Below are positions 5,777 through 8,350 of a stretch of 64,000 bases of DNA, one piece after another. The position numbers were made by a program, and so were the translations under genes. The notes below the pieces were generated by a model. That model saw nothing but the letters and a program-made list of their open reading frames with translations, was not told the origin of the DNA and did no database searches. Every line of letters starts with the position of its first letter. Position 1 is the stretch's first letter. Source of the stretch: Halobacteriovorax sp. (GTDB lineage Bacteria; Bdellovibrionota; Bacteriovoracia; Bacteriovoracales; Bacteriovoracaceae); NCBI GenBank assembly GCA_002720865.1, contig PBIO01000014.1, positions 62,001 to 126,000 of the forward strand, read 5' to 3'.

Positions 5777-5817
5777 CCTCCAATTGCTCCAAATAAGCAT
5801 TAGTGGTAAATTTAAGT

Positions 5818-6240
5818 ATGGTCATATTTGATGTCATTTCCTCTCCAGATAAAGAACGTATAGGTGAACTTTCTATCTTTTTGGAAAATTTCACTTTGGG
5901 AAGTTCAAGAAAAGCAGATCTGCTATTTGAAGACGAAGATATATCAAAATTGCATTTAAATTTTATTTTAAGTGAATCAGGACTACTAATTAAGTCATCA
6001 GAAAATGACTACTATTTTTCAAACGGAAAAAAGCTTAAGGGCGGAAAAATCCATAAGATAGGGGATGAAGTTAGAGTTGGAAGCTCAATTTTAAAAATCA
6101 AACTCCTAGATTTTAAACATTTGTCAGAAAAATTTTCCGACTTATATAAAAAACGACTCGAAGAAAATCCAGAGCAAGAGGCCCTTATTACTCAGCTTCA
6201 AAAAGAACTTATCCATCTGGAAAATAATAAAGATGTTTAA
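5818..6240 (+). CDS. FHA-domain protein
   Basis: The 140-residue protein reads as one forkhead-associated domain followed by a charged helix. FHA landmarks are LGSSRKADLLF (Gly-Arg strand), the ISKLHLNF segment with the conserved Ser and His, and SNGKKL with the conserved Asn-Gly. FHA domains bind phosphothreonine peptides. The frame is open to a GTG at 5803, but the ATG at 5818 starts the conserved part and is the likelier start. It overlaps the hydrolase gene that follows by 8 bases, so the two are coupled. No kinase gene is adjacent, so the partner is unknown. Confidence 0.72.
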   Translation: MVIFDVISSPDKERIGELSIFLENFTLGSSRKADLLFEDEDISKLHLNFILSESGLLIKSSENDYYFSNGKKLKGGKIHKIGDEVRVGSSILKIKLLDFKHLSEKFSDLYKKRLEENPEQEALITQLQKELIHLENNKDV

Positions 6241-7120
6241 AAAACATAAAACAAAGTCATTCGATGGTCATGACCTTTACTATTCCATCAACAGACCTAT
6301 CGAGGAAATCGAAAATCTAGAATCTCCTTTACTCGTTTTTAACTACGGGCTTGTTTGTAATAATGCTCACTGGCAAGAACAGTTACCCTTTTTTGAATCC
6401 AAGGGACATGCCATTTTGATCCATGATTATAGACTTCATTTTGAATCAGCTCTTGAGGCACCTATAGAGTCCTTAACCTTTGATAATATGGCTAAAGATT
6501 TAAAGTCGATTTTAAAAGACTTGGGTAACCCAAAGTCTATTATGTTCGGTCATAGTATGGGTGTAAACGTAACACTCGAGTATGCTAAGCAATATCCAGA
6601 TGAAGTTATAGGAATGATTTTAATTTCTGGTACTGTTGTTCCACCTCACGATATTATGTTCGATACTAATGTAATGGAACTTGCCACCCCAACAATCAAG
6701 TGGGTTACGAGAAAGTTTCCGAACATTTTCGGAGAAATTTGGAAGTCGCAGCATAAGAACCCTTTGATTAAAGACCTTATTCATAGGGGTGGGTTTAACA
6801 CTAGTACTGTCCCAAAAGAATTTGTCGAACATTATCTAAAAAAAATTGGTGAATTACATCCTGAAGTTTTTCACCAACTGTTCAGCGAGATGAAAAAGCA
6901 TAATATTATCGGACAACTTGAAACCTTGCAGATGCCTTCGCTTATTATGGGCGGAGACAAAGATAAAGTAATTCCCAATTATCTTCAGGAAATTCTTCAC
7001 AGCAGATTGAAAAACTCAAAACTGTACATTGTAAAAGATGGTAGTCATGTCCCACAGGTAGACTTTCCTAAAAATATTAATCAAAGAATTGAGCTATTTT
7101 TGGAGAGACTAGCTATTTAA
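6233..7120 (+). CDS. Alpha/beta-hydrolase fold protein
   Basis: The 295-residue protein has the full alpha/beta-hydrolase triad pattern: nucleophile elbow GHSMG near residues 106-110, acid in GGDKDKVIP near 240-248, and the histidine in DGSHVPQ near 269-275. The oxyanion-region strand LLVFNYGLVCNNAHW is close to the N terminus. No signal peptide is present, so it is probably cytoplasmic. The natural substrate (ester, lactone or other) cannot be told from sequence. It is coupled to the FHA gene by an 8-base overlap. Its last 12 bases overlap the 3' end of the convergent RelA/SpoT-like gene. Confidence 0.85.
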   Translation: MFKKHKTKSFDGHDLYYSINRPIEEIENLESPLLVFNYGLVCNNAHWQEQLPFFESKGHAILIHDYRLHFESALEAPIESLTFDNMAKDLKSILKDLGNPKSIMFGHSMGVNVTLEYAKQYPDEVIGMILISGTVVPPHDIMFDTNVMELATPTIKWVTRKFPNIFGEIWKSQHKNPLIKDLIHRGGFNTSTVPKEFVEHYLKKIGELHPEVFHQLFSEMKKHNIIGQLETLQMPSLIMGGDKDKVIPNYLQEILHSRLKNSKLYIVKDGSHVPQVDFPKNINQRIELFLERLAI

Positions 7121-8350
7121 GTTTTTATACTCAATCAAAGTTTTGAAAACTCTGTTTCTAGCGCTAACAACTTGGGATTTTTTATATTCGATATGAGAGG
7201 CCTCACCGCTCGTATTATTATTGTGAGAATCTAAATCAACAATCTGCAATTCATAGGGATAGAAAAACCTAATATCTCTTGCGATAAGTGATACATCCAT
7301 CCCTAAGATTTTCTTAGCTAATTCTGGGTCTTCACCCCTCTCTTTCGCCATTTTTCTAAGCTCATTAAACTCATATAAGAAAGGATTTTTGTATTTAATC
7401 AATTGCCTACAAGTAAATTGAAGGGACTGATAGTCGGCCAAAGAATGTTTATTCTTGTCATCTTTTCCACCGCCGGCCTGACACTCGTTAGCCTCTCTTT
7501 CAATGGCCTGAAGAAATCTCTCTTCAGAAAGGTTATTCCTAATAGCCATTTTTATTAAATTATTATGCTTAACTTTAAACTTTTCTGTATCTAATACTGT
7601 ATTGATCGAACGACTTGGTTTGATATTGTGTGGAATGATTATATTATTTTCAAGTAAGAATTTAACCACTCTAATCGTGTCAAATTTAGTATTTGTAATA
7701 AATCTAACACCGACTCTATCAAAAAGTTCCTCTGCAACATTCTCCGCTTTATGGAGAAGCTTTATGATGACTGAGTCTCTGGTTTTTTTAGATTTTGTTT
7801 CAAACTCAATTAAAGGAAGACCATCTTTTTTACCCTTAACTCCGAGAAAAAGTTTATTGTCCTTGTCTCTATACAGGTATTTATAAAAGCGATCGAAGAT
7901 TTGAGTTTGGATAATATTAAAATAATTCGACCTAAGGTCTTTATCAGTATGTAGAATTGTGTGTATAACCTTGAGGATAACTTCGGCCCAAAGCGTTTCT
8001 TCTACATCAGCACCTTCCTTATTTCCCGTTGCTAACAAGAACAAGTCAGATATATCTGTAATCATATAGATACTATTAGGAATGGTTAGATCTAGTCCGT
8101 CCGGAGTTCCTTCTTTTAAAAAATATCTTTTAATAAATTGTAAGGCCTCTTGAAAATTTCCAAAGAGCTCAGCTCTGCTAACGGGATCCGAGGCATCAAG
8201 CCCATAACCTTTAAGGAACTGGTTTACTTGATCCACATTGTACATCTGACCAACAAAAAACTTTGAATCAAGAGCCGACTTTCCGCCGACAACCACATCA
8301 AGTAGTTCCCAGTCGAAAAGATATTTTGATAAATAAGTTGGTCTATTCAT
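7109..8350 (-). CDS. Divergent RelA/SpoT-synthetase-like protein
   Basis: The 413-residue protein has no closely matching textbook family, but its second half follows the (p)ppGpp synthetase fold motif by motif. KKTRDSVIIKL (189-198) resembles the RxKxxxSI segment. ELFDRVGVRFI (208-218) resembles the DxxGxR strand that carries the metal-binding Asp (D211 here). DYQSLQFTC (306-314) resembles YQSLH, whose Tyr stacks on the guanine (Y307). YELQIVD (366-372) resembles the VEVQIRT strand with the catalytic Glu (E367). GEASHIEYK (382-390) resembles the AAHWxYK end. No HD hydrolase domain or TGS/ACT tail is visible; the N-terminal 180 residues are helical and unassigned. It may correspond to a deltaproteobacterial family catalogued as TIGR04552, but I recall that name without being able to verify it. 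Activity is inference. The start ATG faces pgpA across 47 bases. Confidence 0.7.
   Translation of the reverse strand: MNRPTYLSKYLFDWELLDVVVGGKSALDSKFFVGQMYNVDQVNQFLKGYGLDASDPVSRAELFGNFQEALQFIKRYFLKEGTPDGLDLTIPNSIYMITDISDLFLLATGNKEGADVEETLWAEVILKVIHTILHTDKDLRSNYFNIIQTQIFDRFYKYLYRDKDNKLFLGVKGKKDGLPLIEFETKSKKTRDSVIIKLLHKAENVAEELFDRVGVRFITNTKFDTIRVVKFLLENNIIIPHNIKPSRSINTVLDTEKFKVKHNNLIKMAIRNNLSEERFLQAIEREANECQAGGGKDDKNKHSLADYQSLQFTCRQLIKYKNPFLYEFNELRKMAKERGEDPELAKKILGMDVSLIARDIRFFYPYELQIVDLDSHNNNTSGEASHIEYKKSQVVSARNRVFKTLIEYKNLNS

Follow-up and report, generated by a model that had tools for sequence, protein, structure and literature searches.

The window analysed here is a stretch of 64,000 nucleotides from a contig of Halobacteriovorax sp. 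(PBIO01000014.1). At positions 7109–8350 of its minus strand lies an open reading frame, with an ATG start codon, that encodes a protein of 413 residues. (Positions given below for parts of this protein are on the same strand.) The gene is divergent from pgpA (PF04608; 8398–8895, plus strand), downstream of which are recA, recX and alaS, and convergent with an alpha/beta hydrolase gene (6233–7120, plus strand), the 3′ ends of the two overlapping by 12 bp. A small FHA-domain protein is encoded at 5803–6240 on the plus strand, with recG on one side and the hydrolase gene on the other; it was found in many related loci, but not in all.

The protein matched two NCBIfam families over their full length: TIGR04562 (E = 2e-134, 448.1 bits, cut-off 140), of which profile positions 1–356 were covered, and TIGR04552 (E = 4e-128, 427.6 bits, cut-off 125), with positions 1–352 covered. 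From the sequence alone the gene had looked unannotated, a description that does not hold given this membership, although the family names carry no function: “TIGR04552 family protein” states none, and a relation to the RelA/SpoT (RSH) enzymes is not recorded. No functional account of the family was found in the literature searched, in which the mention that was found stands in a mutation table only. The gene is under purifying selection, with a dN of 0.024 relative to a 97.6%-identical relative at saturated dS.

Distribution and genomic context

A TIGR04552 match was present in 261 of 291 Bdellovibrionota genomes (above the cut-off in 257), nearly always in one copy; the genomes without the gene include several families with small genomes. 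None was found in 14 control genomes. The best 80 of 521 relatives in a contig scan came almost entirely from named Bdellovibrio- or Bacteriovorax-type organisms, and when the search was started from the homologue of another family, all matches fell within Bdellovibrionota. No relative was found on plasmids at an E-value of 1e-5 or on viral contigs (searched with short exact-peptide patterns only), and the protein had no match in PHROGs or PADLOC. The gene has apparently been inherited vertically within the phylum.

The gene order alaS–recX–recA–pgpA–[TIGR04552 gene]–hydrolase–recG–greA was kept in most loci of the nearer relatives. In most of the Bacteriovoracia loci examined, the gene was flanked by pgpA and the alpha/beta hydrolase gene, and the divergent pairing with pgpA was also kept in several more distant families. 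In Bdellovibrio-like families, the TIGR04552 gene is followed on the same strand, at times with an overlap, by a gene for a PlsC-type acyltransferase (PF01553), identified with Pfam in three loci and by BLAST cluster in the remainder. These genes were located 3′ of the TIGR04552 gene at L146:7362–8096 (where the overlap is 4 bp), L147:7113–7850, L155:7370–8248, L157:7384–8130, L159:7032–7748, L163:7114–7680 and L164:6915–7580. Both pgpA and PlsC are phospholipid-synthesis genes, which hints at a link between the TIGR04552 enzyme and phospholipid synthesis. An antitoxin-like partner was not conserved in the loci of distant families; the surroundings are those of a core gene and do not resemble a toxin–antitoxin locus.

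The genome from which the window derives encodes a complete bifunctional Rel elsewhere, separate from the TIGR04552 gene. It also contains a 193-residue frame (L190, contig C25:13430–13585) with a partial match to HD_4 (29.7 bits), possibly a small alarmone hydrolase. In some Bdellovibrio-like genomes, a further, shorter RelA_SpoT-domain protein of 351–352 residues with a YRSIH motif (L182, L183) occurs beside Rel and the TIGR04552 protein.

Relation to RelA/SpoT synthetases

The Pfam RelA_SpoT profile (PF04607) matched residues 189–245 of the protein with E = 9.9e-6 and 26.2 bits, relative to a gathering cut-off of 27. Because this score lies slightly under the cut-off, standard domain searches overlook the protein. 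The same profile matched 21 of 32 diverse TIGR04552 relatives (E up to 0.1; best 4.4e-8). When the TIGR04552 family profile was run against solved structures, Bacillus subtilis SAS2/YwaC was the sole match, and a weak one (E = 0.047), with K189, S193, K197, D211, G214 and R216 aligned in register on identical residues. Profile–profile comparison with long Rel proteins from the same phylum recovered the block of residues 366–394 (E = 3.6e-4 for a single comparison), in which E367, Q369, H386, Y389 and K390 align with the equivalent residues of Rel. The blocks aligned with YwaC and with Rel are independent of each other and occur in the correct order.

The sequence-only reading had proposed a divergent RelA/SpoT-type synthetase, based on five motifs and three retained active-site residues. 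All five motifs are where it placed them: RDSVIIK at residue 191, DRVGVR at 211, YQSL at 307, YELQI at 366 (which contains E367) and GEASHIEYK at 382. We assessed conservation in 121 distinct TIGR04552 homologues, reaching down to ≈25% identity. Invariant in all 121 were K189, K197, D211, G214, R216, N250, N300, P365, E367, Q369, G382, Y389 and R400, while S193 (118), H386 (120) and K390 (118) were nearly so and K201 was changed in one to three. D211 and E367 were thus kept as claimed; residue 307 was Tyr in 114 homologues, Phe in six and His in one. The residue following YxSL was Gln in 78, His in 29 and Lys in 14. Spacing was constant in every member between D211 and N250 (39), N300 and Y307 (7), E367 and H386 (19), and K390 and R400 (10).

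PF04607, the YwaC alignment, conservation and comparison with Staphylococcus aureus RelP (SaRelP; PMC5794853) delineate a putative ATP-donor block at residues 189–219 (7694–7786), with K189, S193, K197 and K201 followed by the metal-binding D211 and by G214, R216 and T219. According to the model and conservation, residues 242–250 (7601–7627) comprise the strand β3 region and end in the family-specific, invariant N250, and residues 307–315 (7406–7432) include the putative acceptor-stacking Y307, the start of strand β4 and the near-invariant F312 and R315. A further segment, residues 365–400 (7151–7258), identified by profile–profile comparison and conservation, contains P365, the putative catalytic and metal-binding E367, Q369, G382, H386, Y389, K390, Q393 and R400. 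In the SaRelP structures, Lys80, Ser84, Lys88 and Arg91 contact the ATP phosphates, Asp107 and Glu174 bind magnesium, and Tyr151 belongs to the guanosine site (PMC5794853). K189, S193, K197, D211, E367 and Y307 match SaRelP residues by sequence-motif register rather than by a superposed structure file. By this register, Lys80, Ser84, Lys88, Asp107, Glu174 and His190 of SaRelP correspond to conserved donor and metal residues of the TIGR04552 family (PMC5794853).

An AlphaFold2 model of the 413-residue protein, built with 48 homologues, had a pLDDT of 81.8. RSH enzymes made up 50 of 50 among the matches listed by Foldseek against the PDB, the best being SaRelP (6ex0; E = 1.7e-3, probability 0.99). 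All E-values for the whole model were >0.001, which we ascribe to the fact that the synthetase domain makes up only a portion of the chain and is interrupted by insertions. A second structural aligner placed RSH synthetases first, with Mycobacterium tuberculosis (Mtb) Rel on top (5xnx; Z = 11.2, RMSD 3.0, 125 aligned), and also found YwaC (6fgk; Z = 10.4) and the ToxSAS enzymes CapRel (7ztb; Z = 7.3) and FaRel2 (Z = 4.1). The first entry outside the RSH enzymes, at Z = 6.4, was a family-X DNA polymerase, a distant relative of the fold. The BFVD viral structures contained no significant match to the model. The link of the TIGR04552 family to RelA/SpoT synthetases is thus supported by PF04607, profile–profile comparison, structure prediction with fold search and residue invariance, in agreement with the sequence-only reading, and the protein almost certainly has the synthetase fold of the RSH superfamily. 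Both outcomes that this reading had named as refuting it, a model unlike the synthetase fold and loss of D211, Y307 and E367 among homologues, failed to appear.

N-terminal region and acceptor loop

The synthetase fold begins near residue 142. It is preceded by a mostly helical N-terminal region, delineated by the model and conservation as residues 1–140 (7931–8350), with no recognised fold. An extra helical region had been anticipated at this end of the protein; its helical character was borne out, and its length is ≈140 residues rather than 180. Near-invariant residues among the 121 homologues are Y49, G50, P91, W121, H130, H134 and D138, and the region is acidic, with a median net charge of −7 across the family. 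Folded alone (pLDDT 79.8), it gave no clear match in a fold search: the best Foldseek E-value was 1.8, and the best Z-score, 6.5 to RbcX, is no higher than common helical arrangements can reach. We considered and rejected an HD pseudo-hydrolase as the identity of this region, since it has no profile similarity to the HD domain of Rel (E = 0.33). No Pfam HD domain was found in the protein either, and the earlier view that it has no hydrolase domain therefore stands.

In long Rel proteins, the loop ahead of the stacking Tyr is a conserved GRFKDYIAxPKxNxYQSLH. No RSH-type G-loop motif was found directly before Y307; in its place are ≈50 residues with two predicted helices. This insertion, at residues 251–306 (7433–7600) as judged from the model, conservation and spacing, thus puts 56 residues between N250, at the end of β3, and Y307, with the two helices followed by a low-confidence stretch that includes the invariant N300. 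The stretch from N250 to N300 has a median length of 50 residues across the family (range 13 to 53), and the charge of the insertion is near neutral (median −1). A second, variable insertion lies within residues 316–364, ahead of E367. One homologue (L061:1462–2589, genome G007) is missing much of the acceptor-loop insertion, matching the profile at 4–233 and 271–356 with little between, and offers a natural experiment on the need for the insertion.

Since a partly helical insertion that brings invariant residues of its own, N250 and N300, takes the place of the G-loop, the acceptor site differs from that of classic (p)ppGpp synthetases. As judged from conservation, the donor side of the enzyme is preserved and the acceptor side is remodelled; for this reason we refrain from naming the enzyme a (p)ppGpp synthetase. 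With the G-loop replaced, GDP or GTP should not be taken for granted as the acceptor.

Proposed activity

We consider the TIGR04552 protein to be probably a stand-alone, hydrolase-less pyrophosphokinase of the RSH superfamily, and there is a good chance, judging from its fold and conserved residues, that it is catalytically active. ATP would be held by K189, S193, K197 and probably K201, and Mg2+ by D211 and E367. The β and γ phosphates of ATP would be transferred as pyrophosphate to an acceptor hydroxyl, probably a ribose 3′-OH, with the acceptor base presumably stacked on the aromatic residue at position 307. Our first guess for the acceptor is a small nucleotide, so that an alarmone, for instance (p)ppGpp or (p)ppApp, or something related would be involved; our second guess is an RNA 3′ end.

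One special case of such a pyrophosphokinase is a true small alarmone synthetase that makes (p)ppGpp from ATP and GDP or GTP in parallel with Rel and in which the insertion does no more than gate the guanosine site. The closest enzymes in fold and Z-score are the (p)ppGpp-making Rel and SAS enzymes, Tyr predominates at position 307, and the bifunctional Rel of the same genome could hydrolyse the product. However, the RSH motif RFKDYIAxPKxNxYQSLH is absent, the position after YxSL is mostly Gln or Lys rather than His, and seven members have Phe or His at 307. We give this special case perhaps one chance in three. More tentatively, the protein could be a phylum-wide core RelA/SpoT-fold enzyme of non-toxin physiology that pyrophosphorylates an acceptor other than GDP or GTP (another nucleotide, a cofactor or RNA). 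Such an enzyme might perhaps be tied to phospholipid synthesis, because pgpA adjoins the gene in some lineages and a PlsC-type acyltransferase gene is directly downstream in others.

A second special case, a housekeeping pyrophosphokinase directed at RNA or tRNA by CapRel/FaRel2-like chemistry, with the RNA held by the N-terminal region and the insertion, seems to us rather unlikely. CapRel and FaRel2 are among the fold matches, FaRel2 uses its N-terminal helices for tRNA (PMC11782079), and the acceptor loop is remodelled; however, an acidic N-terminal region and a near-neutral insertion speak against it, and the gene is a single-copy core gene with neither an antitoxin neighbour nor a PADLOC match.

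It is very unlikely that the protein is catalytically dead or a purely regulatory RSH-fold protein, since the complete invariance of D211, E367, Q369, K189, K197 and R216 is not expected of a dead enzyme. The mutation data in PMC9888234, from the evolution of Bdellovibrio sp. NC01 on a single prey, do list a one-base deletion in a TIGR04552 gene, which in one line out of six exceeded 75% frequency by the endpoint. The deletion would be a frameshift, which suggests that the homologue was dispensable in that culture and that activity is not always needed. A generic polymerase-β-fold nucleotidyltransferase, moving a nucleotide rather than pyrophosphate, is highly improbable: DNA polymerase λ (Z = 6.4) and TdT (Z = 6.3) do appear with the second aligner, but 26 RSH-type entries outrank the polymerases, the conserved residues are in the RSH register, and such matches are the expected distant fold relation.

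If the TIGR04552 pyrophosphokinase is active, Bdellovibrionota own a second synthetase-fold enzyme alongside Rel, and the family would extend the RSH superfamily by a branch whose acceptor site is remodelled. Control by ppGpp has been proposed for the switch between hunting and growth in predatory bacteria (PMC2797640), and an active TIGR04552 enzyme would bear on this switch.

Comparison with known RSH systems

While RSH synthetases are known as a kind, the present variant, with its new N-terminal region, rebuilt acceptor loop and status as a phylum core gene, is not described in the literature searched. With the small synthetases of the RelP/YwaC type, the TIGR04552 protein shares the synthetase fold, the lack of a hydrolase domain and the register of the ATP and metal residues. 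Those enzymes, however, are ≈200 residues long, compared to ≈413 for the TIGR04552 protein, which has the extra N-terminal region and adds the ≈50-residue G-loop insertion and the second variable insertion before E367. The long RSH enzymes (Rel/RelA/SpoT) provide the best Z-score, that of Mtb Rel, and share the E-x-Q … H-x-x-Y-K block found by profile comparison, whereas the TIGR04552 protein has neither similarity to their HD hydrolase nor their C-terminal regulatory half.

The ToxSAS enzymes CapRel and FaRel2 belong to the same fold class. In FaRel2, too, ordered N-terminal helices lie against the synthetase core (PMC11782079); the ATP-contacting Arg of FaRel2, R64, has no exact counterpart, the nearest residue being K186. 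The sequence-only reading had pointed to the ToxSAS enzymes for comparison, and the likeness holds for the fold but does not extend to genomic context: the Z-scores are lower than for Rel, and in place of an antitoxin or phage-defence setting, the TIGR04552 gene is a core gene with conserved neighbours.
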